Shown piece after piece: positions 17,625 to 34,305 of a DNA stretch of 49,066 nucleotides. The number at the start of each line of letters is the position of its first letter. Position 1 is the stretch's first letter. Origin of the DNA: Chitinophagaceae bacterium (lineage in GTDB: Bacteria > Bacteroidota > Bacteroidia > Chitinophagales > Chitinophagaceae); NCBI GenBank assembly GCA_947380605.1, contig CANCRO010000010.1, positions 1-49,066 of the forward strand. Reading direction: 5' to 3'. The position numbers and the translations under genes were made by a program. The notes beneath the pieces are model-generated. The model saw only the letters and a list, made by a program, of their open reading frames with translations. It did not search any database and was not told the DNA's origin.

Positions 17625-18947
17625 ATGAAACGTATTTTCCCGGTCATAACGGTCTTGATTTTGCTTTCCCTCTTAGGAATTATTTTTTTTCAGATTTTAT
17701 GGATTAAGGGAACCCTCGAGTTAGAAGAGCAAAAATTTTATGAGCACGTAAGTCTGGCTACTTCTCAGGCAGCTACTGACCTGATGGAGGAGAAGGGTAA
17801 TCTGATGCCTTTGAAAAGAAAAAGCGAAGCTTTATTTAGAAGTGAAAGTCAGCTAGAAATTTTTAGGCCTACTGTAGCGCAAAAATATAGTGGGGATGAA
17901 ATTTATCGTATCATCAGAAAAGCATTCGATAAAAAAAATCTAAGAAATATTCCTTTTGAATTTGCCATTAGTCCTACCTCATTAATTGGAGAGGAAGTTC
18001 AGTCAGCCAATTTTTATAAATTATATTCAGATTCAGCCAATAATAAACTTCATGTGATTCAATTAGAATCGCCAGCAGGAAGCCTTGCGGAAGGTATCTC
18101 TCCACAGGAAGTTTTAATCGTAACAGTGCCGCATGCAAGAAAACTCATTTGGCAATCACTTACTTGGTTTATCATTGGAGCAATTATTTTTCTTTTGATT
18201 ATTATTACTGCCTTCTTTCTTACGGTGAGGGCTTTGTTAAAGCAAAAAAAGCTGAGTGAAATAAAATCTGATTTTATCAATAATATGACCCATGAATTTA
18301 AAACACCGCTAGCTACTATTTCTCTTGCTGTGGATGCTTTAAAGAACGAAAAAGTAATCAATGATCGTGACAAAATGAGTTACTTTACAGGGATTATCAA
18401 GGAAGAAAATAAGCGAATGAATAGACAAGTAGAAACTATTCTTCAAGCTGCATTGCTTGATAGGCAGCTGGTTCAGTTGAATCTTAAAAAAATGCATGCA
18501 CACGATTTAATCAATAGTGCCTTAAGTAATATCAATCTTCAAGTAGATGAGATTCATGGCCGATTGGAAGTGAATCTGAAGGCCGCTGATGATTTTATTT
18601 TAGCAGATGATGTACATTTTACTAACCTCATTAGTAACCTGTTGGATAATGCCGTGAAGTATTCAAAAGATGATCTTCGGATTATAATCAGTACTCAAAC
18701 TGAAGGCAACCGATTTAAGGTTAAAATTGAGGATAATGGAATTGGTATGACTAAGGAAACAGTGAATAGAATATTTGAAAAATTTTACCGTGCTCACAAC
18801 GGCAATCTTCATAATGTAAAAGGCTTTGGGCTTGGACTTAATTATGTAAAAATGATGGTTGATTCACATCATGGCAACATAAAAGTTGAAAGTGTTTTGG
18901 GTAAAGGAAGTAGTTTTTTACTGAGCTTCCCATTGGTGAAAAATTAG
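17625..18947 (+). CDS. Membrane sensor histidine kinase, orphan
   Basis: This 440-residue two-component sensor has a transmembrane helix at about residues 5-25, an extracytoplasmic domain to about 180, and a second helix at about 184-206. A HisKA domain follows with the phospho-accepting His223 in MTHEFKTPLATIS, then an ATPase domain with NLISNLLDNAVKYS (N box), KIEDNGIGM (G1), a KFYR F box and GFGLGLNYVK (G2). No HAMP domain is obvious; the second helix runs into the dimerisation helix through about 15 residues. No response regulator lies beside it. The stimulus cannot be inferred. It sits directly before the DnaA-box/mraZ region, separated by a weak terminator. Confidence 0.94.
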   Translation: MKRIFPVITVLILLSLLGIIFFQILWIKGTLELEEQKFYEHVSLATSQAATDLMEEKGNLMPLKRKSEALFRSESQLEIFRPTVAQKYSGDEIYRIIRKAFDKKNLRNIPFEFAISPTSLIGEEVQSANFYKLYSDSANNKLHVIQLESPAGSLAEGISPQEVLIVTVPHARKLIWQSLTWFIIGAIIFLLIIITAFFLTVRALLKQKKLSEIKSDFINNMTHEFKTPLATISLAVDALKNEKVINDRDKMSYFTGIIKEENKRMNRQVETILQAALLDRQLVQLNLKKMHAHDLINSALSNINLQVDEIHGRLEVNLKAADDFILADDVHFTNLISNLLDNAVKYSKDDLRIIISTQTEGNRFKVKIEDNGIGMTKETVNRIFEKFYRAHNGNLHNVKGFGLGLNYVKMMVDSHHGNIKVESVLGKGSSFLLSFPLVKN

Positions 18948-19078
18948 CACCCCCTCTTGTTATTTCCTGATAGATTTTGATGGTTCAACTGTTCCAATTT
19001 TTGGACAGGAATTTGCTTTGTACTTCTTTTATTTTTACAATTCTTACCTACATTTTAGTGCCCTTGGTTTGATGGCAT

Positions 19079-19104
19079 AGGGCATTGTTATTAGCCCTTT
19101 TTTT
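19079..19104 (+). terminator. Weak terminator after the histidine kinase gene
   Basis: A 5-bp stem agggc/gccct (19079-19083 with 19094-19098) with a 10-base loop is followed by seven T. It would separate the kinase transcript from the mraZ region. Confidence 0.45.
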
Positions 19105-19117
19105 ACTGCCTTTTTCG

Positions 19118-19158
19118 TAATCCACAGGTTATACACTTCTATTCACAGCTTATTCACT
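19118..19158 (+). promoter_or_regulatory. Tandem array of four DnaA-box-like sites
   Basis: TAATCCACA (19118), TTATACACT (19129), CTATTCACA (19139) and TTATTCACT (19150) each differ from TTATNCACA at one base. All have the same orientation, with starts 11, 10 and 11 bases apart, which is one helical turn. Such phasing suits side-by-side binding of DnaA or another protein. The opposite strand reads as GTG-core repeats, so MraZ is an alternative ligand. Confidence 0.55.
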
Positions 19159-19210
19159 CCTACAACACCACATATACTGCTTAAACTTATACTGAGTGGG
19201 CATTTCCGCT

Positions 19211-19219
19211 TGTGGATAA
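19211..19219 (-). promoter_or_regulatory. Perfect DnaA box TTATCCACA
   Basis: TGTGGATAA on the plus strand is the exact complement of the high-affinity DnaA box TTATCCACA. It is opposed in orientation to the four-site array 52 bases upstream and is followed by an A/T-rich stretch. Confidence 0.6.
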
Positions 19220-19245
19220 AAATGTTTATATCATTTTAGATGTAA

Positions 19246-19277
19246 AAGTGGGAAAAGGTGTTATTTTGTGGTAATAA
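19246..19277 (+). promoter_or_regulatory. Likely MraZ operator: three GTG repeats at 10-bp spacing
   Basis: GTGGGAAAAG, GTGTTATTTT and GTGGTAATAA follow one another exactly every 10 bases, ending 26 bases before the mraZ ATG. MraZ of E. coli binds TGGGN repeats spaced by 5 bases, and Mycoplasma MraZ binds AAAGTG-type repeats. The first unit here (AAAGTGGG) fits both. This suggests autoregulation of the dcw cluster. Confidence 0.65.
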
Positions 19278-19303
19278 TTGATACATATTAAACAACTTAT
19301 TAA

Positions 19304-19771
19304 ATGATTGGTTTTTTAGGCGAATATGAGGCTACTATGGATGCCAAGGGGCGTTTCCTTTTGCCAGCAGGCTTTAAAAAGCAGCTGTCGGAGGAGGGTG
19401 CAAGCCAATTTGTGATCAATCGGGGCATTGAAGCTTGCCTAAGTTTATATCCCATGCAAAGTTGGGAGCCAATTTTTGCTGAAGTAAGTAAGTTGAATGA
19501 TTTTGACCCTAAGGTTAGACAGTTTCGTAGATATTTTTTAAATGGGGCTACCCAACTAGAGTTGGATACAGCTGGAAGGTTATTAATTCCTAAGGCCTTA
19601 ATGGAATATGCTGGATTAGAAAAAGATGTAGTGCTGGTATCTGCCGTAAATAAAATTGAAATCTGGGATGCAAGTAAGTATAAAATGTTCTTTGAATCTT
19701 TTTCACCAGAGTCCTATAGTAATCTGGCTAATGAAGTGATGAACAAAAATGATGAAAAACTGAAAAGCTGA
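19304..19771 (+). CDS. mraZ: Transcriptional regulator MraZ
   Basis: MraZ is a DNA-binding protein that heads the dcw cluster and represses its own promoter in E. coli. The 155-residue protein has the two expected SpoVT-AbrB-like repeats, each with the D-x-x-G-R motif: MDAKGRFLLP at about residues 12-21 and LDTAGRLLIP at about 86-95. MraZ forms ring-shaped oligomers that bind spaced repeats, and such repeats lie just upstream. Its stop is one base from the rsmH start, so the two are surely co-transcribed. Confidence 0.96.
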   Translation: MIGFLGEYEATMDAKGRFLLPAGFKKQLSEEGASQFVINRGIEACLSLYPMQSWEPIFAEVSKLNDFDPKVRQFRRYFLNGATQLELDTAGRLLIPKALMEYAGLEKDVVLVSAVNKIEIWDASKYKMFFESFSPESYSNLANEVMNKNDEKLKS

Positions 19772-19772: not shown

Positions 19773-20732
19773 ATGTTGAAAAAAATGCCTACTGACGAAA
19801 GCAATTTACCTCTCCATTCATCAGCGGATCAGTTGGATTATCATATACCCGTTCTACTTCAAGAAACTATCGATGGATTACATGTAAAGGCGGATGGAAT
19901 TTATGTGGATTGCACTTTTGGTGGAGGTGGACATAGCAGGGCTTTATTGGCACAATTAGGTGAAAAGGGAATTCTTGTTGCCTTTGACCAAGATGAAGCG
20001 GCTAGAAAAAACCTTCCCACTGATAGTAGAGTAATTTTTGTTCCACAAAATTTTCGTCATTTGCAACGCTTCTTGCGCCTAAATAAAATTACTCAGGTCG
20101 ATGGCATTTTGGCTGATCTAGGGGTTTCTAGTCATCAATTTGATAAGGCCGATCGTGGATTTTCCATTCGTTTTGATGCCGCACTGGATATGCGAATGGA
20201 TCAGCGACAAAAAACTACCGCAGCAGATATTCTCAAGCAATTTACTGAACTACAGTTACACAAAATGTTGGAACAATATGGTGAAGTTACCAATGCAAAA
20301 ACATTGGCAAAGACAATTGTTCAGCAAAGGGGATTGATGCCCATCAAAACTATCCAACAATTTAAACAAGCTGTGGAGTCTGTAGTTAAAGGGAATCCTC
20401 AAAAATATTTCGCTCAAGTTTTCCAAGCATTAAGAATAGAAGTAAACGATGAAATGGGTGCATTAAAAGAATTATTGCAGCAAACCCCCAGTTTGTTAAA
20501 ATCTGGTGGGAGAATAGCCATTATTACTTTTCATTCATTAGAAGATAGAATGGTGAAGAATTTTTTTAAAACAGGAAGTTTTTCTGAAGAAGTAATGGAT
20601 GACTTATACGGAGATAAACCAGAAAGTCAATTTAAAATCCTTACAAAAAAACCAATCTTACCGACTGATATTGAAACAAGGAGAAATAAAAGATCTAGAA
20701 GTGCGAAACTGAGATTGGTAGAAAAAAAATAG
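19773..20732 (+). CDS. rsmH: 16S rRNA (cytosine-1402-N4)-methyltransferase RsmH
   Basis: RsmH (MraW) methylates N4 of C1402 in the 16S rRNA decoding centre using S-adenosylmethionine. The 319-residue protein shows HIPVLLQETIDGL, the SAM motif DCTFGGGGHSRALL, DGILADLGVSSHQFD, the dimerisation-side FSIRFDAALDMRMD, and the C-terminal ITFHSLEDRMVKNFF. Its length is normal. ATG 19773 directly follows the mraZ stop; a second ATG four codons on is possible. Fifty-three bases separate it from ftsL. Confidence 0.97.
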   Translation: MLKKMPTDESNLPLHSSADQLDYHIPVLLQETIDGLHVKADGIYVDCTFGGGGHSRALLAQLGEKGILVAFDQDEAARKNLPTDSRVIFVPQNFRHLQRFLRLNKITQVDGILADLGVSSHQFDKADRGFSIRFDAALDMRMDQRQKTTAADILKQFTELQLHKMLEQYGEVTNAKTLAKTIVQQRGLMPIKTIQQFKQAVESVVKGNPQKYFAQVFQALRIEVNDEMGALKELLQQTPSLLKSGGRIAIITFHSLEDRMVKNFFKTGSFSEEVMDDLYGDKPESQFKILTKKPILPTDIETRRNKRSRSAKLRLVEKK

Positions 20733-20785
20733 TCACTGTAATAGTTTTTCAACCACTAGTAACTAGTGATGCATATTTAATAAAA

Positions 20786-21130
20786 ATGTTTGAAGATAAG
20801 TATATACAGAAGGAAGAGCCGATTGCGGTGAAAAGGGATTGGAAAATTATTCTAAGCCATAAGTGGGTGGTTAAGAATATTCCCTTCTTTCTTTTCTTGG
20901 CTGTTTTAGCGGTGTTGTATATCTATAATGGCCATCATTCTGACAAGTTAATTAGAAAGATGGGGGAAACAGAAAAGCATATTAAGGAGTTAGAGTTTGA
21001 ATTTAAAACAATTAAGAGTGAGGTTATTTTCAGAAGTAAAGCGAGTGAATTAATAAAAGCAGTAGAGCCGCTGGGGTTAAAAGAAATGACAACCGCCCCA
21101 GTTATTTTATTGCAAGGTAAATCAGAGTAG
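20786..21130 (+). CDS. ftsL: FtsL-like cell division protein
   Basis: This 114-residue bitopic membrane protein sits where ftsL is found in dcw clusters. It has a basic N-terminal cytosolic segment, one transmembrane helix at about residues 33-51 (IPFFLFLAVLAVLYIY), and a periplasmic coiled-coil-like stretch (MGETEKHIKELEFEFKTIKSE). FtsL bridges FtsQ/FtsB to the FtsW-FtsI synthase. Sequence similarity to E. coli FtsL is too low to see; the call rests on position, size and topology, as for the Bacteroidota FtsL-like family. Confidence 0.88.
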   Translation: MFEDKYIQKEEPIAVKRDWKIILSHKWVVKNIPFFLFLAVLAVLYIYNGHHSDKLIRKMGETEKHIKELEFEFKTIKSEVIFRSKASELIKAVEPLGLKEMTTAPVILLQGKSE

Positions 21131-21228
21131 TAGAGGTTGTGAGGCAATTGTATTAAATGAAATGCCAAGCGGTATAGTAAAATTAAAAAGTATTCTAAAA
21201 TAATAAGCGAGCTAAAAATATAAAGGTA

Positions 21229-23355
21229 TTGGATATTAAAAAAGACATATTGTGGCGAGTATATCTCTGTTTTATAGGGATCATATTACTGGGTGCAGTT
21301 GTATTAGGCAGAGCTTTTTTCTTACAACAGGTTCAAGGAGCTTATTGGAAAAGTATGGGAGATAGTCTGCATTTAAAATATGTTCCACTTGTTGCTGAGA
21401 GAGGAACTATTTTTAGTGAGGATGGAAATATGTTAAGTACTTCTATTCCAATTTTTGATGTTTACGTAGATTTTGGGGCGGATGGCCTAAGAGAAAAGAA
21501 TGGAAAACGTTTCAAACAATATTCGGACACCTTGAGTAGCTGTTTGGCCAATCTTTTTAAAGATAAAACTAAGGAAGACTATTTGAATGAACTTCAATTG
21601 GCCTATAAGAATGTAGATCGTTATTATACACTTAAGAAGAAAATTACCTTTTTAGAATATGAGCAGTTGAGAGAATTTCCTTTAGTAAAATTGGGAAGGA
21701 ATAAAAGTGGTTTTATGATTGACCCGCGTGATAAGCGAATCAATCCATATGCATTGTTGGCTAGTAGAACCATCGGTTTATCAAGAGATAATGCGAAGTT
21801 GAATGTGGGTCTTGAACAGAGTTATGACAGTTTATTACGTGGTAGAACTGGTCAGCGATTGATGCGTTATATCGCGGGGGCTTATATGCCAGTTGAAGGT
21901 GCTGAGGTAGAGCCTGAAAATGGAAAAGATATTATCACCACGCTGGATACTTACATACAGGACATTACTGAAAGTGCATTGATGAAGATGATGGTGGATA
22001 ATAATTCTAATCATGGTACTGCCATAGTGATGGAAACCGCAACTGGTAAGATTAAAGCAATAGCAAACCTAGGTAAACAACCCGATGGGACTTATGTAGA
22101 AGATTTAAATTATGGTATTGCGAAGGCTACTGAGCCGGGTTCTATTTTTAAACTCGCTACCTTATTAAGTTTGATTGAAGATAAGTATGTGACTAAAAAT
22201 TCAATCGTGGATTGTGAGGGTGGTGCTAAATCTTTTTACGGATTAAAAATTAAAGATGCGCATTTGGGAGCAGGTTCAATTACTGTTAAAGATGCATTTT
22301 CTGCAAGTAGTAATGTTGCTTTTGCAAAATTAGCCGATCAGTATTATCATAATGACCCTTCAAAATTCTTAGCTCACTTACATCATTTACGTTTAGATAC
22401 TTTAACAGGTATTGATATTACTGCTGCCTCTGCAAGACCAACCATTAAAAGTCCAAAAAATAGAAGCTGGTCAAAAACTACTATTCCTTATATGGCGCAT
22501 GGGTATGAGGAACTACTTACTCCTTTGCACCTTCTGATGGTATACAATGCTGTTGCTAATAATGGAACTATGATGCAGCCCTATTTGGTTAATTCAGTGA
22601 ATCAATATGGAGTAGAAGTAAAAAGAATTTTACCAAAGGTGTTGGTAAATAAAATATGTAGTGATGAAACGCTTGCACAATTAAAAGAGTGCTTGAAAGC
22701 AGTGGTAGATAGTGTGCACGGAACAGGACATAAAGTATTATATGATACGAATTATTCTATTTCTGGAAAAACCGGAACTGCAGTAACTGCATTGGATAAT
22801 CGTGGGTATAATAAAGGCAATAAAATTTATCAAGCCTCTTTCATGGGCTATTTCCCGTCAGAAAAGCCAGCTTATACCATCGCTATAGTTATTCAAAATA
22901 GTGCCCAATCAAAATTGATATACGGTGCAGATGTTTCTGGTAAAGTATTTAAGGAAATAAGTGATAAGATTTATGCTCGTTATTTAAGTCATCAAAAATT
23001 TAAAAGAAGTCTAACTCCTGATACTTTACAATATCGTTATTATGGAATGAAAAATGAATTGAATTCAATTTTCAGCCAATTGAATTTGCCCTTTGTAGAT
23101 TCTGCCATTGGAGGATATTGGAGAACGATGCAGATGAAAGATAATGCAGCAGTTTTCAATTTGCCAGAATCAGCTAATACCGATGCTTTAGTTATTCCTA
23201 GTGTAGTGGGTATGGGTTTAAAGGATGCGGTGTACTTAATGGAAAACAAGGGATTGAAGGTAATGGCTACAGGAAGAGGAAGGGTTTTTAGTCAATCAAT
23301 AGAAGCAGGCACTTCATTTATTAAAGGACAAACCGTAACACTATTTTTAAATTGA
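21229..23355 (+). CDS. ftsI: Septal penicillin-binding protein (FtsI/SpoVD type) with C-terminal PASTA domain
   Basis: This class B transpeptidase crosslinks septal peptidoglycan with FtsW. The 708 residues include an N-terminal transmembrane anchor (about 9-32), a dimerisation/pedestal domain, and a transpeptidase domain with S305-x-x-K308 (GSIFKLATL), S360-S361-N362 (ASSNVAFAK) and K514-T515-G516 (SGKTGTAVT). One PASTA domain covers about residues 645-708 (IPSVVGMGLKDAVYLMENKG). The start must be a TTG at 21229: no upstream in-frame ATG exists before a stop, and the next ATG would remove the membrane anchor. An AAAGG lies just upstream. It overlaps murE by 4 bases. Confidence 0.95.
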   Translation: MDIKKDILWRVYLCFIGIILLGAVVLGRAFFLQQVQGAYWKSMGDSLHLKYVPLVAERGTIFSEDGNMLSTSIPIFDVYVDFGADGLREKNGKRFKQYSDTLSSCLANLFKDKTKEDYLNELQLAYKNVDRYYTLKKKITFLEYEQLREFPLVKLGRNKSGFMIDPRDKRINPYALLASRTIGLSRDNAKLNVGLEQSYDSLLRGRTGQRLMRYIAGAYMPVEGAEVEPENGKDIITTLDTYIQDITESALMKMMVDNNSNHGTAIVMETATGKIKAIANLGKQPDGTYVEDLNYGIAKATEPGSIFKLATLLSLIEDKYVTKNSIVDCEGGAKSFYGLKIKDAHLGAGSITVKDAFSASSNVAFAKLADQYYHNDPSKFLAHLHHLRLDTLTGIDITAASARPTIKSPKNRSWSKTTIPYMAHGYEELLTPLHLLMVYNAVANNGTMMQPYLVNSVNQYGVEVKRILPKVLVNKICSDETLAQLKECLKAVVDSVHGTGHKVLYDTNYSISGKTGTAVTALDNRGYNKGNKIYQASFMGYFPSEKPAYTIAIVIQNSAQSKLIYGADVSGKVFKEISDKIYARYLSHQKFKRSLTPDTLQYRYYGMKNELNSIFSQLNLPFVDSAIGGYWRTMQMKDNAAVFNLPESANTDALVIPSVVGMGLKDAVYLMENKGLKVMATGRGRVFSQSIEAGTSFIKGQTVTLFLN

Positions 23356-24815
23356 TATTAGCAGATCTACTATATAAAGTTAGCATTAGAGCGGTATTGG
23401 GTAATACTAATATCGAGGTGAATGATTTACAAATCGATTCAAGAAAAGTTTGTGACGCTAGTTGTTTTATAGCCATCAAGGGTAGCGTTATTGATGGACA
23501 TCAGTTTATTGATACTGCAATTAAAAATGGTGCAAAGGCGATTTTATGTGAGGTGCTTCCTAGTGAAGTGAGTGACAAAGTTACTTATGTACAGGTTCAA
23601 AATAGTGCTATAGCTATTGGTTTTATTAGTCATAATTTTTATGGAGCGCCTTCAGAAAAGATCAAGTTGGTAGGGGTTACAGGTACTAATGGTAAAACAA
23701 CTATTGTTACGCTGTTATGGAAATTATTTAGTGCATTAGGAAATAAATGTGGCTTGATTAGTACTATACAAAATCAAATTGGAGATACCGTTTTAGTTTC
23801 TACTCATACTACTCCGGATGCCATTAGCATAAATTCATTATTGCGTAAAATGGTAGATGCAGGCTGCCAATACGTTTTCATGGAATGTAGTAGTCATGCT
23901 ATTCATCAGCATCGTATTGCAGGATTACAATTTGCTGGAGCACTTTTTAGTAATATCAGTCACGACCATCTTGATTATCATTCAACTTTTGATGAATATA
24001 TCAGCGTAAAAAAATCTTGGTTTGATGGACTTTCTTCTACTGCATTTGCTATTAGTAATGCAGATGATAAAAGAGGAAGAGTAATGCTACAGAATACCTT
24101 AGCGAAGAAATATTATTATAGTCTTACAACAATGGCAGATTGTAAAGGAAAGATTCTTGATAATAGTTTGAGTGGTTTACATATGGTGGTAAATGATATC
24201 GACGTTTATTTTAGAATGATTGGTGAGTTTAATGCGTATAATTTATTAGCAGTATTTGAAGCTGCAGTTTGTTTGGGACAAGATAAAAATTTGATTTTAC
24301 AATTGCTGAGCAGTTTGGATGGTGCTGAAGGAAGATTTGATTATATGGTAAGTAGCCGGGATAAAATAATTGGCATTATAGATTATGCTCATACGCCTGA
24401 TGCTTTATTGAATGTATTGGCTACGATTAAAAAATTACGTCAGGGTAATGAGCGAATTATAACAGTAGTGGGATGTGGTGGTGATAGAGATAAAACCAAG
24501 CGTCCAATGATGGCGGCAGTGGCCTGTGAATATAGTGATCAAGTAATTTTTACATCTGATAATCCAAGAACTGAAGATCCTCTTGAAATTTTACATGAAA
24601 TGGAATTAGGCGTAAATGTAGTAGCTAGAAAAAAGTATATCACTATCGCCGATAGAAAGGAAGCGATCAAAACAGCTGTAAGGCTTGCTTTAAAAGAAGA
24701 TATCATTTTAGTGGCAGGGAAAGGACATGAGAAATACCAGGAGATTCAATCAATAAAATATGATTTTGATGACAAGCAGTTATTGAATGAAATGTTTGAA
24801 TTGATGGAGAAATAG
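23352..24815 (+). CDS. murE: UDP-MurNAc-tripeptide synthetase MurE (meso-diaminopimelate adding)
   Basis: MurE adds the third stem-peptide residue to UDP-MurNAc-L-Ala-D-Glu, using ATP. The 487-residue protein has the N-terminal binding segment NDLQIDSRKVCDASCFIAI, the P-loop GVTGTNGKTTIVTLLW, SSHAIHQHRI and SNISHDHLDYH. DNPR at residues 403-406 (SDNPRTEDP) is the motif linked to meso-diaminopimelate selection, so the peptidoglycan is probably of the mDAP type. The start is TTG within TTGA, overlapping the ftsI stop, a sign of translational coupling; no nearby ATG could replace it. Confidence 0.96.
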   Translation: MILADLLYKVSIRAVLGNTNIEVNDLQIDSRKVCDASCFIAIKGSVIDGHQFIDTAIKNGAKAILCEVLPSEVSDKVTYVQVQNSAIAIGFISHNFYGAPSEKIKLVGVTGTNGKTTIVTLLWKLFSALGNKCGLISTIQNQIGDTVLVSTHTTPDAISINSLLRKMVDAGCQYVFMECSSHAIHQHRIAGLQFAGALFSNISHDHLDYHSTFDEYISVKKSWFDGLSSTAFAISNADDKRGRVMLQNTLAKKYYYSLTTMADCKGKILDNSLSGLHMVVNDIDVYFRMIGEFNAYNLLAVFEAAVCLGQDKNLILQLLSSLDGAEGRFDYMVSSRDKIIGIIDYAHTPDALLNVLATIKKLRQGNERIITVVGCGGDRDKTKRPMMAAVACEYSDQVIFTSDNPRTEDPLEILHEMELGVNVVARKKYITIADRKEAIKTAVRLALKEDIILVAGKGHEKYQEIQSIKYDFDDKQLLNEMFELMEK

Positions 24816-24889
24816 TTGAGTTAGTTGAACAAAGAGAGGTGGAGTGTAGAAATAAATTTTAAAAGTAATAAAAGAGCAAATTTAAAAAT

Positions 24890-26206
24890 ATGCTGTATCA
24901 TTTATTTCATTGGCTTACTGAATCGGGATATAAATTTCCTGGAAGTAAATTATTTGCCTTTATTACTTTTCGTGTGATGTTGGCAGTTATTTTAAGTCTA
25001 TTCATCACGACAGTATATGGTAAAAAATTAATTGCGTTTCTTCAAAAAAAGCAGTTAGGAGAAACGGTTAGAGAATTAGGTTTAGCGGGTGAGCAGCAAA
25101 AAAAAGGAACTCCTACAATGGGAGGACTCATCATCATTTTAGCTATTTTAATACCTACTTTATTATTGGCAAACCTCGACAAAGTATACATCCGCTTGAT
25201 GTTGCTTTGTACTGTTTGGTTAGGAACGATTGGGTTTATTGATGATTATTTAAAAATTCGCTCTAAGCGTCTTGCACTTGCTAAAGGCGCTGATTACAAA
25301 AAAAGCAATAGTGACGGATTGGCTGGACGATTTAAAATATTTGGTCAGGTTATGTTGGGAATCATTGTGGGTGCTACGCTATATTTTACTCAAAGTGTAG
25401 TGGTGCAAAGAGAAGTGTATAATCCTGATTTTTCTTTAGTGAAAGACTCTGTATTGAGACCAGGTGAAAAATTAATGAGCGATAGTTTTAATGTAGTAGC
25501 GATCGATGGCAAAAAACATCTTTTTGTAAAAGTTAAATCTCCTATCACTACTATTCCTTTTGTGAAAACGCATGAATTTAACTATGCCAAATTATTACCT
25601 AAGAACCTTCAAGACTATACCTATATACTTTATATCCTTATTGTAATATTTATTGTAACTGCGGTAAGCAATGGTGCTAATATAACTGATGGCTTAGATG
25701 GTTTAGCAACCGGTGTAAGTGCTATTATTGGAATTAGTCTGGGAATTTTTGCATACGTGAGTGGTAATATAAAGTTTGCAGAATACCTCAATATAATGTA
25801 CATCCCTAATCTAGGAGAGTTATCAATTTTTATTGCTGCATTTGTTGGTGCATGTATCGGTTTTCTTTGGTACAATTCTTATCCTGCGCAAGTTTTTATG
25901 GGAGATACGGGTAGTCTTGCCTTGGGTGGCATCATCGCTGCATTAGCAATTATTGTTCGTAAAGAATTATTGATTCCAATTTTTTGCGGAGTTTTTTTGA
26001 TAGAAAATTTAAGTGTAATGATTCAGGTAGCCTATTTTAAATATACGAAGCGAAAGTATGGCGAAGGGCGAAGGGTATTTTTAATGAGCCCACTGCATCA
26101 TCATTATCAAAAGTTAGGGTATCATGAAAGTAAAATTGCAGTTAGATTTTGGATTGTTACAATTCTATGTGTAGTAGTAGCAATAGTTACATTGAAATTG
26201 AGATAA
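24890..26206 (+). CDS. mraY: Phospho-N-acetylmuramoyl-pentapeptide transferase MraY
   Basis: MraY moves phospho-MurNAc-pentapeptide onto undecaprenyl phosphate to form lipid I. The 438-residue polytopic protein has [24 protein letters not shown] (Asp pair), [27 protein letters not shown] and the [13 protein letters not shown] histidine motif. It is longer than E. coli MraY (360). The extra part is an about 75-residue segment at roughly residues 175-240, between transmembrane helices after [14 protein letters not shown]. This insert appears typical of Bacteroidota MraY, though its role is unknown. Six bases separate it from murD. Confidence 0.97.
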
Positions 26207-26212
26207 AAAAGG

Positions 26213-27553
26213 ATGAAGAAAAAATTAGTCATATTAGGAGCGGGTGAAAGTGGTGTTGGCACTGCTCTATTGGCTATGAAGCAAGGGTATGAAGTATTTG
26301 TAAGTGATGGTGGGAAAATAAAAGAAGAGTATAAAAATGAATTGAAAACCAATGGGATTGACTTTGAAGAATTAGGGCATGCAGAAGAAAAGATTCTCAA
26401 TGCAGATGAAGTAATGAAAAGTCCAGGTATTCCCGAAAAAAATGAATTAGTAAAAAAAATAAGACAAAAAGGAATTTCTATTATCAGTGAAATTGAATTT
26501 GCTTTTAGGTATAAGGGGGATAGTAGAATAATTGCTATAACGGGTAGTAATGGAAAAACCACCACCACTTCACTTACATGGCATATTTGTAAAAATGCAG
26601 GAATGGATTGTGCAATGGTTGGAAATATTGGATACTCTTTTGCAAGACAATTGGCTCTTGATCCAAAATCTTTATATGTGATAGAGATTAGTTCTTTTCA
26701 ATTAGATGATATAAAAACTTTTCGTCCAGATGTGGCGATACTGACCAATATCACTGAAGACCATTTGGATAGGTATGATTATAAAATGCAAAACTATGTA
26801 GATAGTAAGTTTAGGATAGTAGAAAATCAGCAGGTCAACGATGTGTTCATTTTCAATTTAGATGATACAATTACTAATCAAAATATAAATAAATATTCCA
26901 TTCAATCAACTTTATATCCCATTACAATGAGTAAAGAACTACCACAGGGTGCGTACCTGACAAACGCTCAGATGTACTTAAAATGGAAAGCGGAGGAAAT
27001 GCATATGAGCATAGAAGATTTTGCTTTGAAAGGAAAACACAACCAGTATAACAGTATGGCTGCAAGTTTAGGGGCTACGGCTGTTGGCATTAAAAAAGAA
27101 ATTATCAGAGAGTCTCTACAAACTTTCCAAAGTTTAGAACACCGCATGGAGCCAGTGGCTAAAATAAAGGGGGTCCAATTTATTAATGATTCAAAAGCTA
27201 CTAATGTTAATAGTACTTGGTTTGCATTAGAGAGTATTGATAAGCCAACCATTCTAATATTGGGTGGAGTAGATAAGGGTAACGATTACTCGCTTTTAAA
27301 TGATTTAGTTAAAGAAAAAGTTAAAGCCATCGTTTGCATGGGGGTTGATAATCGTAAGATACATGAAGCTTTTGGAGATATTGTTTCATTAATTGTTAAT
27401 GCAAGTTCTGCTGAGGAGGCGGTAAAAGCGGCATTTCATTTTTCGGATAAGGGAGATGTTGTTTTGCTAAGTCCAGCCTGCGCAAGTTTTGATCTTTTTA
27501 AAAACTATGAGGATAGAGGAAATCAATTTAAGCATGCTGTAAAAAATTTATAA
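26213..27553 (+). CDS. murD: UDP-MurNAc-L-alanine:D-glutamate ligase MurD
   Basis: MurD adds D-glutamate to UDP-MurNAc-L-Ala. The 446-residue protein has the N-terminal Rossmann start KKLVILGAGESGVGTALLA, the ATP-binding ITGSNGKTTTTS (P-loop about residues 111-117), EISSFQLDDI, NITEDHLDRYD, the NDSKATN motif and the C-terminal LLSPACASFDLFKNYEDRG, which is diagnostic for MurD. An AAGG lies six bases before its ATG. It lies tightly between mraY and ftsW. Confidence 0.97.
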   Translation: MKKKLVILGAGESGVGTALLAMKQGYEVFVSDGGKIKEEYKNELKTNGIDFEELGHAEEKILNADEVMKSPGIPEKNELVKKIRQKGISIISEIEFAFRYKGDSRIIAITGSNGKTTTTSLTWHICKNAGMDCAMVGNIGYSFARQLALDPKSLYVIEISSFQLDDIKTFRPDVAILTNITEDHLDRYDYKMQNYVDSKFRIVENQQVNDVFIFNLDDTITNQNINKYSIQSTLYPITMSKELPQGAYLTNAQMYLKWKAEEMHMSIEDFALKGKHNQYNSMAASLGATAVGIKKEIIRESLQTFQSLEHRMEPVAKIKGVQFINDSKATNVNSTWFALESIDKPTILILGGVDKGNDYSLLNDLVKEKVKAIVCMGVDNRKIHEAFGDIVSLIVNASSAEEAVKAAFHFSDKGDVVLLSPACASFDLFKNYEDRGNQFKHAVKNL

Positions 27554-27631
27554 GAAAATCTAGTTCGATGCCTATTGGCAAAGAATAAAAATAAAAAAGT
27601 CAATCAATCTCCAACTAGTAGGAGAAAAAAT

Positions 27632-28942
27632 ATGTCAGAGCAAAAGTCCATATTAAAAAAATTGTTTGGAATTCCGCCAATCGAAGAAGGGGTATTTAAT
27701 ACTTCTATACGAGGAGTTGAAGGGATGAGTGGAAATCTTGTGCGGAAGACTAGCGGAGATAAAGTAATATGGGCGATTGTGATTATCCTTTCATTGATTA
27801 GCTTGTTGGTGGTTTATAGTAGTACTGGCTCATTGGCTTATAAATACAGTAAGAGTACAGAGAGTTATCTTTTTAAACAATTTGCATTAATTATTTCAGG
27901 TGTAATCTTTATATATTTTGCGCATCGGGTCAATTACACTTTCTACTCTAGGGTGGCCAAAATATTATTTTTAATTTCTATTCCTTTATTAATCTATACG
28001 TATTTTTTTGGTACAACTTTAAATGAAGGTAGTCGTTGGATTAAACTTCCTGTAATTAATCAAACTTTTCAAACATCTGATCTTGCCAAGTTAGCGCTGT
28101 TTATGTATTTGAGCCGACAATTGAGCAGAAAGCAATTGGTCATTAAAGATTTTAAGAAAGGATTTTTACCCATTATTATTCCGATTCTCGTTATATGTAT
28201 TTTAATTGCTCCAGCTAATTTATCTACTGCTATGTTAGTAGCGGGTACAAGTTTTATGCTAATGTTTATTGGCCGGGCAAACGCTAAACATCTGATATTA
28301 ACGATTACTATCGCAATTATTCCAATTATACTACTATCTCTGGTAGCGGTTAAATATTATGATAAGGCAGAAGGGAAATCAAAAGATTTACCCGCCATTT
28401 TTTCTTCTGGTAGAATTCCTACTTGGATTAGTCGTATTCAAACATTTATTTACACAGGTAAGGGAGATGGTGGAGAAAAGACTTATCAGATTAATCAAGC
28501 TAAGATTGCAATTGCCAGTGGGGGTTGGTTTGGAAGAGGACCAGGTAATAGCAATGCTCGTAATTTTTTACCTCACTCCTATAGTGATTTTATTTTCGCT
28601 ATTATATTAGAAGAGTACGGATTATTGGGAGGAGCGTTTATAGTTTTTATTTATTTATTGTTTTTGTATCGATGTATTAGGTTGTATAGAAAATGTCCAT
28701 TTGCATTTGGTGCTTTTCTCGCATTAGCCTTGAGTTTTACATTGGTAATTCAAGCATTTGCTAATATGGGGGTGAATGTAAACGTATTTCCTAACACAGG
28801 GGTTACCCTACCGTTAGTAAGTATGGGTGGAAGTAGTTTTCTTTTTACTTGTTTGTCTATTGGAATTATATTAAGTGTAGCTCGAAATGTAGAACAGCAG
28901 GAAAGTCCAGCTTCACTTGCAATAGATAAAGAAGAAGCGTAA
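27632..28942 (+). CDS. ftsW: Septal peptidoglycan polymerase FtsW
   Basis: FtsW is the SEDS-family glycosyltransferase that polymerises lipid II at the septum together with FtsI. The 436-residue protein has about ten transmembrane segments. It shows conserved SEDS stretches: LNEGSRWIKLP, SDLAKLALFMYLSRQL, a GRGPGNS loop and HSYSDFIFAIILEEYGLLGG, then PNTGVTLPLVSMGGSS. I prefer ATG 27632, preceded by an aggag ribosome-binding-like run. A TTG at 27575 would add 19 lysine-rich residues and would put the start 21 bases after murD. An unusually long about 45-residue cytosolic N-terminus precedes the first helix. Confidence 0.95.
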   Translation: MSEQKSILKKLFGIPPIEEGVFNTSIRGVEGMSGNLVRKTSGDKVIWAIVIILSLISLLVVYSSTGSLAYKYSKSTESYLFKQFALIISGVIFIYFAHRVNYTFYSRVAKILFLISIPLLIYTYFFGTTLNEGSRWIKLPVINQTFQTSDLAKLALFMYLSRQLSRKQLVIKDFKKGFLPIIIPILVICILIAPANLSTAMLVAGTSFMLMFIGRANAKHLILTITIAIIPIILLSLVAVKYYDKAEGKSKDLPAIFSSGRIPTWISRIQTFIYTGKGDGGEKTYQINQAKIAIASGGWFGRGPGNSNARNFLPHSYSDFIFAIILEEYGLLGGAFIVFIYLLFLYRCIRLYRKCPFAFGAFLALALSFTLVIQAFANMGVNVNVFPNTGVTLPLVSMGGSSFLFTCLSIGIILSVARNVEQQESPASLAIDKEEA

Positions 28943-28965
28943 AAAAAATTGAGTGTATAAAAGTA

Positions 28966-30120
28966 ATGAAAGAACAAGTAGCCGATAGTATTTTAGGAAA
29001 TTCCACTTTTGGAAGCCGGATTGCCCGTATCATTATTGCAGGTGGGGGAACTGGCGGACATATTTTTCCAGCTATTGCTATTGCTAAAGCTATTGTCAGA
29101 TTGCAACCACAAACACAAATTTTGTTTGTAGGTGCTTCGGGTAAAATGGAAATGGAAAAAGTGCCCTTAGCTGGATTTCGTATCGAAGGATTAACAATAG
29201 CCGGATTTAATAGAAGCTCTTTGATTAAAAATATTAGTTTACCCTTTAAGTTGTTTAAGAGTTTTTTTCAAGTCAGTAACATTTTTAAATCGTTCAAACC
29301 AACTGCAGTTATTGGGGTGGGAGGGTATTCAAGTTTTCCTGTTCTTCGTTATGCTCAAGCAAAAGGGGTAGATACATTTATTCATGAAAGTAATTCTTAT
29401 GCGGGGAAGTCGAATCGAATGTTAGGGAAAAATGCTACTAAGATTTTTGTTGCCATTGATGGAATGGGTAAGTTTTTCCCTTCCAATAAAATTATTCAAA
29501 CTGGTAATCCAGTTAGAGAAGCTATCGTTAACAGTAAGCTTTCGAGAGAAGAGGCAATTTTATTTTTCGGACTCGATCCTAATAAGAAAACAGTTCTTGC
29601 TATCGGAGGAAGTTTGGGGGCTAAAAATATCAATGAAGCCTTGGCTAAGGGTATCAGTGAATTTGAAAAAAATGACTTACAACTTATTTGGCAAACTGGA
29701 AAACCCTTTGTGGAAAAAGGTAGAGCGATAGCGAATGGCAAATCAAATATTTGGATAAATGATTTTATTACTCAAATGGAAAATGCTTATGGGGCTGCAG
29801 ATATAGTAATTAGTAGAAGTGGCGCGATGTCGATTGCTGAATTAGCGGTGATGAAAAAGCCAGCTGTATTAGTTCCTTTTCCATTTGCAGCAGAAGACCA
29901 CCAAACAGTGAATGCGCATAGATTGGTTGACAAAAATGCAGCAATAATGATACCTGATTCGGCGGCGTTGGATCAATTAGTATCGACGGTAGTTGACCTT
30001 TCAAAGAATAATGATAAGCAGCAAGCGTTAAAGGAAAATATTAGTCAGTTGGCAGTGAATAATGCCGATGAAGTAATTGCTAAGGAAATATTAAACGCTC
30101 TAAATAAGACAAACGAATAA
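28966..30120 (+). CDS. murG: UDP-GlcNAc:lipid I N-acetylglucosaminyltransferase MurG
   Basis: MurG adds GlcNAc to lipid I on the cytosolic membrane face, giving lipid II. The 384-residue protein has the N-terminal glycine loop IIAGGGTGGHIFPAIAIA (from about residue 23), the VIGVGGYSSFPVL and FIHESNSYAGKSNR stretches. In the UDP-GlcNAc domain there is GGSLGAKNINEAL, and SRSGAMSIAEL followed by VPFPFAAEDHQTVNA. A 22-residue N-terminal extension precedes the first beta strand; no later ATG fits as well. It lies 23 bases after ftsW and 24 before murC. Confidence 0.96.
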   Translation: MKEQVADSILGNSTFGSRIARIIIAGGGTGGHIFPAIAIAKAIVRLQPQTQILFVGASGKMEMEKVPLAGFRIEGLTIAGFNRSSLIKNISLPFKLFKSFFQVSNIFKSFKPTAVIGVGGYSSFPVLRYAQAKGVDTFIHESNSYAGKSNRMLGKNATKIFVAIDGMGKFFPSNKIIQTGNPVREAIVNSKLSREEAILFFGLDPNKKTVLAIGGSLGAKNINEALAKGISEFEKNDLQLIWQTGKPFVEKGRAIANGKSNIWINDFITQMENAYGAADIVISRSGAMSIAELAVMKKPAVLVPFPFAAEDHQTVNAHRLVDKNAAIMIPDSAALDQLVSTVVDLSKNNDKQQALKENISQLAVNNADEVIAKEILNALNKTNE

Positions 30121-30144
30121 AGAAATATATTATTAAAAATATCA

Positions 30145-31596
30145 ATGAAAATATTTAATCAATTGTTATCATTTTTAGGAGCATCTTCTCCCCTTAAGGA
30201 AGGAGTTGAACCGGCAGTCTATTTTCTGGGTATCGGAGGTATAGGCATGAGCGCATTGGCAAGATATTTTCAATCACAGGGTGTTAAAGTAAGTGGATAT
30301 GATAAAACAGAAACTGTTCTTACCAGACAACTTTCTGCTGAGGGTATCGCTATTCATTATGAAGATAAAATCGAATGGGTTAACAAAGATGCTCAATTGA
30401 TTATTTATACACCGGCTGTACCAAAAGATAGTATCGAATTAAATTTTTATCAGCAAAATAATTATACGGTTGTTAAAAGAAGTGAAGTATTAGGTGCCAT
30501 TACCAATGCAGCTTTCAATATTTGTATTGCAGGTACACATGGTAAAACAACTACCAGCACTATGGTTGGACATATTCTTCGTCATAGCAAGTATGGTTGT
30601 AATGCTTTTCTTGGGGGCATTTCAGTTAATTATGGTACTAATTTCTGGAGTGATAATAAAAATGTTTGCGTTGTAGAAGCGGATGAATATGATAGAAGTT
30701 TTTTGAAATTAAGTCCAGATATCGCCATTATTAGTTCAATGGATGCGGATCATTTGGATATATATGGAACAGCGGAAAATATGGAGCAGGCGTTTATCGA
30801 CTTTTCAAAAAAGGTTAAACCAGGCGGCTTGTTGATAAGTAAATATGGGTTGAATAGAGCGGCAGATTTAGGTGCGGACCAAATGTTAACCTATCATTTA
30901 ACCGACAATAAGGCCAATGTTTTTGCAAGCAATATTATTATTCAAAATGGTAGTTATCAATTTGATATTGAACTGAATGATTCTAACGGTGGTAATTGGA
31001 TGCTAAAAGGTGTGGTGTTAAATATGGGGGGTAAACATAATATCGAAAATATGCTTGCAGCAATTACTGTTGCCCATCATATTGGAGTGGAGGATAAAAA
31101 GATTATCGATGCGGTAGCTGATTTTAAAGGTGTGAAACGACGCTTTGAGTATATTTTAAAAACGAGTCATCAAGTTTTCATAGATGATTATGCGCATCAT
31201 CCCGAGGAGTTAAGGGCATTGATAACTGGTGCAAAGAATTTATTTCCAGATAAAAAGTGTACCGTGGTTTTCCAGCCGCATCTGTTTAGTAGAACTAGGG
31301 ATTTTGTGGATGGTTTTGCTGAAGTCTTAGACCTTGCTGATGAAATCATTCTTTTACCAATTTATCCGGCAAGGGAATTACCAATGGAAGGGGTCAGTAG
31401 TCAAATGATTTTGGACAGGATGCATAGTGAAGATAGAATGTTATTGAGTAAGGAAAATCTATTAAAGCATTTTTTATTAGAAAAAGATGCGCATGTAGAA
31501 GAGGGCTTTACGGGCAATATGGTGATTACAGCTGGTGCTGGAGATATCGATATGTTGGTTGAACCAATTAAAGAAATATTAATCAATAAAAATTAA
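30145..31596 (+). CDS. murC: UDP-MurNAc:L-alanine ligase MurC
   Basis: MurC attaches the first stem-peptide amino acid, L-alanine, to UDP-MurNAc. The 483-residue protein has FLGIGGIGMSALARYFQSQG, the P-loop AGTHGKTTTSTMVGHI (about residues 129-144), VVEADEYDRSFLKL, the GKHNIENMLAAI motif, and the C-terminal DDYAHHPEE diagnostic of MurC. Roughly 20 residues precede the first beta strand. MurB, which usually makes its substrate and often lies beside it in other phyla, is not in this cluster. Confidence 0.97.
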   Translation: MKIFNQLLSFLGASSPLKEGVEPAVYFLGIGGIGMSALARYFQSQGVKVSGYDKTETVLTRQLSAEGIAIHYEDKIEWVNKDAQLIIYTPAVPKDSIELNFYQQNNYTVVKRSEVLGAITNAAFNICIAGTHGKTTTSTMVGHILRHSKYGCNAFLGGISVNYGTNFWSDNKNVCVVEADEYDRSFLKLSPDIAIISSMDADHLDIYGTAENMEQAFIDFSKKVKPGGLLISKYGLNRAADLGADQMLTYHLTDNKANVFASNIIIQNGSYQFDIELNDSNGGNWMLKGVVLNMGGKHNIENMLAAITVAHHIGVEDKKIIDAVADFKGVKRRFEYILKTSHQVFIDDYAHHPEELRALITGAKNLFPDKKCTVVFQPHLFSRTRDFVDGFAEVLDLADEIILLPIYPARELPMEGVSSQMILDRMHSEDRMLLSKENLLKHFLLEKDAHVEEGFTGNMVITAGAGDIDMLVEPIKEILINKN

Positions 31597-31639
31597 TCAA
31601 AATATCCTTTTAAAGAAATAGCAATAGAGGGTTGATTTT

Positions 31640-32734
31640 ATGGTAAAAAAGAAAATTATAATAAATGTTTTGCTAGCCATTTTTTGGACTGCCTTAGGTA
31701 CGGGAACTATTGTTTTGCTTGCTGCAGCAATACGTATTAAGGATTCAAAAAAATGTACTGGAGTAGAGATTACTATCAAAGCAGTGAGTAATAACTTTTT
31801 TGTTGACAAAGCTGATATACTTAAAATTATAGCTTCTAATACGAATGGTGACTTGAAAGATAATAAAGTGAGTTCTTTTGATTTGAAAGAAATTGAGTTA
31901 GAGCTTGAAAAAAATATATGGATTAAGAAAGCACAATTGTTTTTTGATAATAATGAGAAGTTGCAAGTAAACGTTACAGAGAGAGAGCCGGTCGCAAGAG
32001 TGTTTAGTAGTTATGGAACCACCTTTTATGTGGATAAAGAGGTTTCGATGCTTCCATTGAGTGATAAGTTTTCTGCTAGACTGCCGGTTTTTACCAATTT
32101 TCCATCTGATAAAAAGGTGCTCTTGCCGTCAGATAGCAGTTTGTTAAGGGATATTATTTCAATCAGTCAAGCGATTCAAAAAGATTCATTTTATATGGCT
32201 ATGATTGAGCAAATTGATATAACCCCGCAACACACTTTTGAAATGTTACCCAAATTAGGTAACACACTTATTGTAGTTGGAGATGCAAAAAATATAGATA
32301 AAAAATTAGCTAAACTCCGTATGTTTTATAAAGAGATTGTAGTAAAGGCTGGGTGGAGTAAGTATAGCGAAATTAATATTCAGTACAATAATCAAGTGGT
32401 AGCAAAAAGAAAGGGTGTCGAAGATGTGCGGGCTGATTCATTGCGCACTTTGCAATTAATTCAGTTGATAGCTGAGAATGCTAAAAAGTTATCAGAAGAC
32501 TCTTTACAAACGATTATTCAGGACACAGAGAAAAATTCGCCCAATAGCAATATGATTTTGCAGTCAATTGAGCGAGATGAAAATAGTGATTCTATCCCAG
32601 CGTTGGAGCCGGGTTTTTTAAAAGAAAATATTGAAAATAAAAAGCCAGCAGCAGTAGTAAAACAAAACTTAGATAAAACTAAAAAGGCAAATCAAGCATT
32701 ACCAAAAACAGTAGTAAAAAAACATTCATTATAA
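31640..32734 (+). CDS. ftsQ: Cell division protein FtsQ/DivIB with long C-terminal tail
   Basis: This protein sits between murC and ftsA, the usual ftsQ position. Of its 364 residues, a transmembrane helix covers about 7-28, followed by a POTRA-type segment (VSNNFFVDKADILKIIAS), then WIKKAQLFFDNNEKLQVNVTE, REPVARVFSSYGTTFYVDK and the beta domain ending around INIQYNNQVVAKRKG. The last about 105 residues (from about 260) are low-complexity, rich in Lys, Glu, Asn and Ser, and look disordered. Ordinary FtsQ ends soon after the beta domain, so this tail is additional. It should lie in the periplasm. Confidence 0.92.
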   Translation: MVKKKIIINVLLAIFWTALGTGTIVLLAAAIRIKDSKKCTGVEITIKAVSNNFFVDKADILKIIASNTNGDLKDNKVSSFDLKEIELELEKNIWIKKAQLFFDNNEKLQVNVTEREPVARVFSSYGTTFYVDKEVSMLPLSDKFSARLPVFTNFPSDKKVLLPSDSSLLRDIISISQAIQKDSFYMAMIEQIDITPQHTFEMLPKLGNTLIVVGDAKNIDKKLAKLRMFYKEIVVKAGWSKYSEINIQYNNQVVAKRKGVEDVRADSLRTLQLIQLIAENAKKLSEDSLQTIIQDTEKNSPNSNMILQSIERDENSDSIPALEPGFLKENIENKKPAAVVKQNLDKTKKANQALPKTVVKKHSL

Positions 32735-32771
32735 AGTATCAATTTTTATAAACACACACAAACATACAATT

Positions 32772-34199
32772 ATGACTCAAGAACAAAACACAACAAATGA
32801 TAGCGGAGTGGTAAATACCAATCCTGTTATTGTTGGCCTTGACATTGGCACTACTAAAATAGCTGCTATTGCTGGTCGGAAAAATGAATACGGCAAACTA
32901 GAAATTCTTGGTTTTGGCCGTGCCAATAGTAATGGCGTTCAGCATGGAATGGTGTTAAACATTGATCAAACCATTAAGGCAATTGAAATGGCTTTGAAAA
33001 ATTGTTACGATTCTAATCCTAATTTATCAATTGAAGAAGTGTATGTTGGTATTGCAGGCCATCATATTAAAAGTTTGCAAACTCGTGGTGATATTGTTCG
33101 TCAGGCTACTGAAGAAGAAATTCGCCAGGAGGAAGTTGATCGCTTGGTTGCTGATCAATATAGAACTTACATTCCTGCAGGAGATCAAATTATTGATGTC
33201 ATTCCACAAGAATTTACAGTGGATAATTTCCAAAATATTCCTAATCCTATAGGGTATAGTGGAGTGAAAGTGGGTGCCAATTTCCATATAATTACTGGCG
33301 ACAAAAACGCTATTCGCAATATTAATAGAAGTGTAGAAAAAGCAGGATTATCTACTAAAGATTTGGTTTTACAACCTTTAGCATCAGCTGCTGCAGTGAT
33401 GTGTGAACAAGATTTAGAGGCAGGTGTAGCGATAGTAGATATTGGAGGTGGTACTACGGATCTAGCCGTATTCTACGAAGGAATATTGAAACATACCGCT
33501 GTTATTCCTTTTGGAGGAGAAAATATTACCAATGATATTAAGAATGGTCTAGGTGTTTTAAAAACACAGGCGGAACAAATGAAAATTCAGTTTGGAAGTG
33601 CCTTGAGTGATGAGGCAAAATCCAATGCATTCATTACAATACCTGGATTACGGGGTATGCAATCAAAGGAAATTAGTGTAAAAAATCTTGCAGCTATTGT
33701 TCAGGCTAGAATGAGTGAAATCATGGATTTTGTTAGCTATCATTTAAAGCAGGTAGGTTTAGATACACGTTTATTGAATGGTGGAATTATTTTAACCGGT
33801 GGAGGATCACAATTGAAACACTTGATTCAGTTAACTGAATATGTTACTGGACTCAATGCAAGAATTGGTTATCCAAATGAACATTTAGCTGGTGGACATA
33901 TTGATGAGTTAACCAAGCCAATGTACAGTACTTGTATTGGTTTAATATTAAAAGGGTATAATGATTATGAAAATAAAAATAGGCCTTTAGATGAATCATT
34001 TCATAAAATATCTGTCCCTAATTCATTAAGAAGAAAAACTGCTTCAGAAGATTTGGAAGCGTCAATAGCTGGTGAAGAGTTTGATCAACTATCAAGTAAT
34101 AAAAAAATAAATGAGCGTAAATCTTTAAAGGGATTTATGGATTCTTTCAAAATTGGCTTGATTGATTTGTTCAAAGAAGAGGAAGACGGAAAATTATAA
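32772..34199 (+). CDS. ftsA: Cell division protein FtsA
   Basis: FtsA is an actin-like ATPase that tethers FtsZ filaments to the membrane. The 475-residue protein has the phosphate-1 motif GLDIGTTKIAAIAG (about residues 23-36), the 1C-domain stretch VYVGIAGHHIKS, phosphate-2 AIVDIGGGTTDLAVF and GGIILTGGGSQLKHL. The C-terminus carries an amphipathic segment (GFMDSFKIGLIDLFKEE), which fits the membrane-targeting helix. An acidic/lysine-rich linker of about 60 residues precedes it. ftsZ starts 106 bases downstream, the largest gap in the cluster, leaving room for a separate ftsZ promoter, although none with a full consensus is visible. Confidence 0.97.
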   Translation: MTQEQNTTNDSGVVNTNPVIVGLDIGTTKIAAIAGRKNEYGKLEILGFGRANSNGVQHGMVLNIDQTIKAIEMALKNCYDSNPNLSIEEVYVGIAGHHIKSLQTRGDIVRQATEEEIRQEEVDRLVADQYRTYIPAGDQIIDVIPQEFTVDNFQNIPNPIGYSGVKVGANFHIITGDKNAIRNINRSVEKAGLSTKDLVLQPLASAAAVMCEQDLEAGVAIVDIGGGTTDLAVFYEGILKHTAVIPFGGENITNDIKNGLGVLKTQAEQMKIQFGSALSDEAKSNAFITIPGLRGMQSKEISVKNLAAIVQARMSEIMDFVSYHLKQVGLDTRLLNGGIILTGGGSQLKHLIQLTEYVTGLNARIGYPNEHLAGGHIDELTKPMYSTCIGLILKGYNDYENKNRPLDESFHKISVPNSLRRKTASEDLEASIAGEEFDQLSSNKKINERKSLKGFMDSFKIGLIDLFKEEEDGKL

Positions 34200-34305
34200 G
34201 TCGTTACAAATTTTTTAAATAAATATACTAACCCATTAACAACAGTACTTTCAATTTACTGCCTTACTAACAGCAAATACAGAACGTACTTAAATAGTAA
34301 CCATT

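Follow-up and report, generated by a model that had tools for sequence, protein, structure and literature searches.

Upstream of the division genes of a bacterium of the family Chitinophagaceae lies a row of short repeats resembling DnaA boxes, which raises the question of whether the row marks a replication origin or a site at which DnaA acts on transcription of mraZ to ftsZ. The stretch of DNA analysed, here called the window, has 49,066 nucleotides. An earlier note, made from the sequence alone, had described four same-strand 9-mers with starts 11, 10 and 11 bp apart, and these were found as described, all on the + strand: TAATCCACA (19118-19126), TTATACACT (19129-19137), CTATTCACA (19139-19147) and TTATTCACT (19150-19158), each one base off TTATNCACA. 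The box scan also recovered the inverted, perfect box that the note had reported, TTATCCACA, on the - strand at 19211-19219; 52 bases separate this box, the anchor, from position 19158. The AT-rich stretch of 29 bases with 25 A/T was confirmed by base count at 19217-19245, between the anchor and the MraZ boxes, and its first 3 bases overlap the anchor. The window carries no dnaA, as the note had stated; the sole dnaA match of the genome is on contig C15.

The intergenic region with the array extends from the stop codon of a gene for a sensor histidine kinase (17625-18947, +; Pfam HisKA and HATPase_c) to the start of mraZ (19304-19771, +; Pfam PF02381 at 9.4e-36, NCBIfam TIGR00242 over the cut-off), the first gene of the dcw cluster. 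The rest of this division and cell-wall cluster follows at 19773-36216 (+; Pfam and ORF list), with Pfam matches for mraW, an ftsL-like gene, a penicillin-binding transpeptidase, FtsW/RodA, FtsA and FtsZ and for a glycosyl transferase of family 4 at the mraY position. The Pfam scan left out the ORFs at 23352, 26213, 28966 and 30145, and the ORF at the ftsQ position (31640-32734) had no Pfam match. A further perfect TTATCCACA lies inside this last ORF (32029-32037, -); ftsQA of E. coli likewise carries DnaA boxes. An ORF of 2449 aa is located downstream of the cluster (39323-46672). A candidate terminator of the histidine kinase gene, seen by eye and likely to be one, is located at 19084-19107 (GGGC-10-GCCC, then a T run); the loop limit of the hairpin scan was 8, and the stem-loop is not among its results. 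With a likely terminator after the histidine kinase gene, mraZ would need its own promoter. Promoters of the host phylum differ from the sigma-70 type, and a scan of 18900-19400 for promoters of that type found 0, with 1.4 expected.

MraZ boxes are spaced at 10 bp. Three repeats resembling them, GTGGGA, GTGTTA and GTGGTA, start at 19248, 19258 and 19268 (19248-19273, +), in exact 10-bp steps, and are probably the mraZ operator. Such GTG repeats recur upstream of mraZ in 78 relatives (from the best 80 of at least 482), although the finder was scored for GTG, which favours GTG by construction, and gave little or no weight to the flanking AA and A. According to the available part of PMC8475190, the MraZ boxes upstream of dcw in Mollicutes are AAAGTG[T/G] repeats. 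The GTG repeats of such dcw MraZ boxes are thus found here too, whereas the DnaA row is a separate element with the opposite orientation and a different motif.

Weak boxes are common, and a row of them could in principle be a product of chance, or of common descent without function. One-mismatch DnaA boxes were not enriched in the window (61 seen, 74.7 expected). The phased same-strand row, on the other hand, was absent from 120 copies of the window simulated with a first-order Markov model, which yielded 0 triples and 0 quadruples. An earlier, stricter triple pattern gave 0 matches, and ATNCAC repeated three times at intervals of 10-11 bp was used as a core pattern instead. The genome-wide scan for box clusters suggested by the earlier note confined this looser pattern to the region upstream of mraZ, both in the 2.88-Mb draft genome of the window (G000), with two overlapping matches, and in a single-contig genome of the same genus (G039). 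The region 19100-19300 had no match in a phage collection.

Conservation upstream of mraZ, which the note had regarded as informative, was found in the genus and in named relatives alike. At 45 same-genus mraZ loci, including that of the window, an inverted box within one mismatch was present in all 45, 75-112 bp before mraZ. At least one row box accompanied it in 43 of the 45 loci and at least two in 37; the two loci without a row box are L128, which has 139 bp of upstream sequence only, and L133 (G026), which truly lacks the row and has the anchor. The phased triple was searched for in 93 same-genus genomes and gave 46 matches in 39 of them, compared with 0 for a reversed-pattern control. 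Among those with a located mraZ, 19 of 23 triples were directly upstream of mraZ, as were both matches in G078. One triple away from mraZ, in G013, is located 107 bases upstream of nadA. Two genomes of the genus (G016, contig C73; G079, contig C21) share an identical phased triple, ATGCACGAGTTATTCACGGTTATTCAC, and the G016 copy is off the mraZ contig.

The named relatives are the best 80 of at least 482 by MraZ similarity, a set that leans to near relatives and in which several loci are genomes also counted under G handles. Among the matches listed, the nearest records by MraZ were Ferruginibacter, Chitinophaga, Flavitalea, Paraflavitalea, Puia, Niastella and unspecific Chitinophagaceae or Bacteroidetes. 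Two loci with too little upstream sequence (L212, L234) were dropped, and 78 loci with 300 bp upstream were used. Within this best-80 set the inverted box, some one-mismatch forms being allowed, was near -95 in 76 of the 78 loci, and it was a perfect TTWTNCACA in 70. Row boxes were counted in the 76 loci that remained after the 2 anchor-less ones had been dropped. The row zone, 50-130 bp upstream of the anchor, held 169 boxes on the + strand and 3 on the other, the expected number of + boxes from 500 mononucleotide shuffles being 6.8 on average and 15 at most; at least one box was present in 74 of these 76 loci and at least two in 64. A motif-free count of 7-mers in the row zone of the same 76 loci from the best 80 of at least 482 gave ATCCACA 66 times in 47 loci (0.82 expected; reverse complement 0), followed by TATCCAC 59 times (reverse complement 1) and ATTCACA 52 times (reverse complement 1).

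Row boxes sit on different helical turns in different species, and their spacing is periodic. In the 76 loci, drawn as above from the best 80 of at least 482, the period had a broad peak at 10.5-11 bp (R 0.64-0.66, with the maximum at 10.75), compared with an R of 0.51 at 10.0. After loci with similar spacers had been collapsed, the 59 remaining loci with 133 boxes gave an R of 0.64 at 10.5. The median ungapped identity in this best-80 set was 0.30 for the spacer between row and anchor and 0.89 for the anchor. Because spacer identity is low while the boxes persist, shifting by whole helical turns, the boxes look held by selection. Chance was rejected by the Markov windows, the shuffles and the reversed-pattern control, and an origin of the row by chance or by descent without function is hardly credible.

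How far the row reaches was assessed with 198 genomes drawn from the order. The phased triple matched in 27 of these, namely the window's own genome, 12 of 31 genomes from other genera of the family and 14 of 163 from other families; the reversed control gave 9 matches in 6 genomes, one of them among the 31 and five among the 163. At the loci that were fetched, the triple lay at mraZ in 11 of the 12 family genomes from other genera, compared with 1 of the 14 outside the family; for the twelfth family genome, G282, the locus fetched for one of its matches was a simple repeat. Because of this difference in placement the row is, on the evidence of sequence, a family trait, and the matches outside the family are largely background. 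The number and quality of the boxes vary, strict phased triples being present in only 39 of the 93 genus genomes and 12 of the 31 other-genus family genomes. At one locus of another family (L173 on contig C15 of G072, the same region as L105), a phased triple is found upstream of mraZ in the opposite orientation, either of independent origin or rearranged. In the order's other families, 30 loci had one-mismatch boxes equally often on both strands (31 + and 31 -), so that no row was seen. At 8 of these 30 loci, with 0.04 expected, the MraZ boxes are preceded at 20-50 bp by a perfect inverted TTWTNCACA, and the lone anchor box may be older than the row. Eight loci with dnaA promoters had scattered boxes, one of them perfect (L033), and no phased row.

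Of the two readings offered by the earlier note, the first takes the array for the chromosomal origin of replication. In its favour are the phased boxes next to AT-rich DNA, as in the box clusters of oriC, a row that is unique genome-wide in G000 and G039, and a gene orientation that diverges somewhat around the array. The GC-skew check that the note had proposed was run on single-contig relatives, the window's own genome being a draft of 161 contigs, and in two of them the minimum lay away from mraZ. In G039 (one contig of 3.76 Mb), 40 stretches of 20 kb gave a single skew minimum, at the ends of the contig, with the maximum near 1.9 Mb. Fine sampling of 208 kb narrowed the minimum to a few kb from these ends, next to nadA, which is preceded by an AT-rich gap with DnaA-like boxes. 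This minimum is 533 kb from mraZ, and dnaA lies about 564 kb from it on the side opposite mraZ. In G078 (same genus, one contig of 3.46 Mb, 20 samples with place labels up to 1 kb off), the sign change of the skew fell between the samples at 0.864 and 1.037 Mb. This interval ends at nadA (1.039 Mb), a gene 494 kb from mraZ (0.546 Mb), and the skew was negative on both sides of mraZ. An oriC at mraZ is thereby ruled out in these two relatives. In G139, of another genus, the skew was too weak to favour either gene, its cumulative minimum being near 2.8-3.05 Mb, away from both mraZ at 2.21 Mb and nadA at 3.71 Mb.

Within the window, raw skew had no uniform sign to the left, was largely positive to the right and followed gene orientation. 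Skew at fourfold sites kept its sign across the array: it was 0.07 to the left and 0.05 to the right in + genes, with -0.09 in the stretch 34-49 kb, and 0.24 to the left and 0.37 to the right in - genes, where sites are few. Together with the box-rich and AT-rich DNA upstream of nadA, which in the window's genome lies on another contig, these results make the origin reading very improbable.

A search of 20 genomes located nadA in 19, and 18 of these loci were read. At 17 of the 18, the upstream region had 5 to 11 box-like 9-mers in AT-rich DNA, a count made without shuffle control; the remaining locus, L155 of another family, had one. In the window's genome nadA is on contig C29 (L150, upstream of 26478), where the upstream GC is 0.22 and five box-like 9-mers are present. 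The oriC of the group is probably the AT-rich gap upstream of nadA (L039 1-622, which is the start of the G039 contig, and L150). This gap is flanked on its other side in G039 by a gene resembling peptidyl-prolyl isomerase, and the degenerate boxes TTATTAACA, TTATCCACC and TCATCCACA occur at recurring places in several of the nadA-upstream loci. The distances of mraZ and dnaA from nadA were similar, at about 533 and 564 kb in G039, 852 and 887 kb in G044 and 382 and 443 kb in G026. In G039 and G044 nadA lies between the two genes, whereas in G026 both are on one side of it, an arrangement like that left by inversions around the origin.

Which protein the row would serve was judged from its motif. 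Row units, which had been preselected at one mismatch to TTATNCACA but not at the N position, have a free fifth base (C.54, T.25, A.12, G.09), and a motif of this form is, by its base preferences, that of DnaA. The DnaA of the window's genome scored over the NCBIfam DnaA cut-off, has the canonical DnaA signature GGRDHTTVIH within domain IV and could be aligned to DnaA chains of solved structure, among them 1j1v, the E. coli complex of DnaA domain IV with DNA, at 2.4e-19. The anchor forms TTATCCACA and TTTTCCACA are both inside the DnaA-box sets given in the accessible part of PMC5835720.

The row might instead be a further operator for MraZ, or a site that MraZ and DnaA share, since GTGNAT recurs every 10-11 bp on its antisense strand and resembles the GTG repeats of MraZ boxes. 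Sharing of sequence between the two proteins is possible, as the E. coli MraZ site overlaps a DnaA box of mioC in the portion available of PMC4446571, which cites Eraso 2014. Because of this overlap, the likelihood assigned to MraZ at the row was raised a little and that of the preferred reading, DnaA-responsive regulation of mraZ, was lowered from about 0.78 to 0.76. The base frequencies of the row (TTATNCACA) nevertheless differ from those of MraZ box 1 (AAGTGGGAAA), its orientation is opposite to that of the MraZ boxes, and its period in loci from the best 80 of at least 482 is 10.5-11 (R 0.64-0.66) and not 10.0 (R 0.51). Direct MraZ-box repeats at 10 bp were thus not found in the row, as motif, period and orientation all differ, and MraZ as its ligand is quite unlikely.

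A DnaA titration or nucleotide-exchange site, like datA or DARS, could have been placed before mraZ by happenstance. The cluster does lie away from oriC, and the distance between nadA and mraZ amounts to 0.142 and 0.143 of the chromosome in the two single-contig genomes of the genus. A titration site would, however, have no need of a mostly fixed distance to the MraZ operator, and the anchor was 37 bp from the first MraZ box in 62 of the 76 loci from the best 80 of at least 482. In 9 of these 76 the distance was 27 bp, which is one turn less or reflects another repeat taken as the first. The lone perfect anchor at the same place outside the family (the 8 of 30 loci above) also argues against this explanation, which is unlikely.

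The array is best explained as a predicted DnaA-responsive regulatory region of the mraZ (dcw) promoter rather than an origin, with a probability of roughly three in four. Of the two readings in the earlier note, the origin thus fell to the skew data, and the DnaA switch of mraZ-ftsZ stands as a prediction favoured by conservation, phasing and the mostly fixed position relative to the MraZ operator, with TTWTNCACA-type boxes present near the promoter. The layout resembles that of E. coli oriC, where strong nucleating boxes and rows of weak boxes in the same orientation are filled by ATP-DnaA oligomers, where oppositely oriented sets face each other and where whole-turn changes in spacing are tolerated and part-turn changes are not (PMC4285127 and PMC10316083, in the parts available). 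The mraZ element shares the strong box and the weak phased row and differs in lying off the skew minimum, next to a promoter. Sites, conservation, orientation, phasing, spacing, the absence of oriC from mraZ in two relatives and the DnaA domain IV signature were computed; from this oriC-like box grammar beside a promoter we infer, by analogy, DnaA at the anchor, ATP-DnaA in the row and a modulated promoter, and thus the binding, cooperativity, ATP preference and transcriptional effect proposed here. DnaA would be bound at the strong inverted box, mostly at a fixed distance upstream of the MraZ operator. ATP-DnaA would then fill the weaker same-orientation boxes cooperatively, on one face of the helix, and a single nucleoprotein complex of anchor and row would arise beside the promoter. 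Through this complex, transcription from mraZ to ftsZ would change with the DnaA state of the cell, alongside repression by MraZ. With a start site near 19275, itself a guess, the anchor would be at about -60 and the row at about -117 to -157, and the upstream position leans slightly to activation over repression, at little better than even odds.

Several observations weigh against a DnaA switch. Among the named loci from the best 80 of at least 482, 2 of 78 have no anchor and 2 of the 76 anchored ones have no row box, and the row boxes are mostly one base off the consensus. The missing row of L133, the limited share of genomes with strict phased triples and the 27-bp distance to the operator in 9 of the 76 loci count against it as well. 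In E. coli, DnaA boxes inside ftsQA were irrelevant for ftsZ, as far as the available part of PMC8203912 goes, and the delay along mraZ-ftsZ in cell-cycle transcriptomes was explained by locus replication and operon position rather than by DnaA, in the section available of PMC10081379. In B. subtilis under arrest of replication initiation, RsmH and PbpB of the ftsL operon were near wild-type levels and FtsL was undetected (PMC11019786, partial text).

DnaA at division-gene promoters is already known, and what appears to be new is a phased layout common in the family. The ftsL operon of B. subtilis is one such case, and we take it to be led by mraZ (yllB). RsmH (MraW) and PbpB share this operon with ftsL (PMC11019786, in part), and DnaA was bound in vivo at its promoter (Goranov et al. 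2005, as cited in the parts available of PMC8203912 and PMC11019786). The likeness to the present locus is DnaA at the promoter of a division operon; the difference is the phylum, and the physiological weight of the binding is doubtful in the text available from PMC11019786. The ftsZ, gcrA and mipZ promoters of Caulobacter are likewise under DnaA, according to the available part of PMC8203912. DnaA is tied to division-gene transcription in Caulobacter as well, whereas it acts there at ftsZ and not upstream of mraZ. To our knowledge, no conserved phased row is present at the DnaA-controlled promoters of Caulobacter. For both B. subtilis ftsL and Caulobacter ftsZ, the weight of DnaA for division timing is doubtful on the partial text of PMC8203912 and PMC11019786. 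At the E. coli mioC promoter, DnaA boxes repress a division-tied gene and an overlapping MraZ site is present (PMC4446571, in the portion available). DnaA and MraZ thus meet at one promoter there too, but mioC adjoins oriC, has two boxes without a phased row and is not part of the dcw cluster. A search of titles and abstract beginnings in the open-licence literature found no description of a phased DnaA-box element upstream of mraZ.

A bolder version of the preferred reading, and an unlikely one, is that an orisome-like DnaA filament forms outside oriC, running from anchor to row on one helical face, and bends or opens the AT-rich DNA before the MraZ operator, so that dcw would be gated by ATP-DnaA in a dedicated replication-to-division checkpoint common in the family. 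If true, this checkpoint would share the filament chemistry of the initiator with the origin. The link between replication initiation and division in bacteria is still an open question. At the start of the division cluster, many related species have retained a promoter element with its helical phasing. This element offers a defined site to mutate, and in cultured Chitinophaga such a site would make the link between replication and division directly testable.
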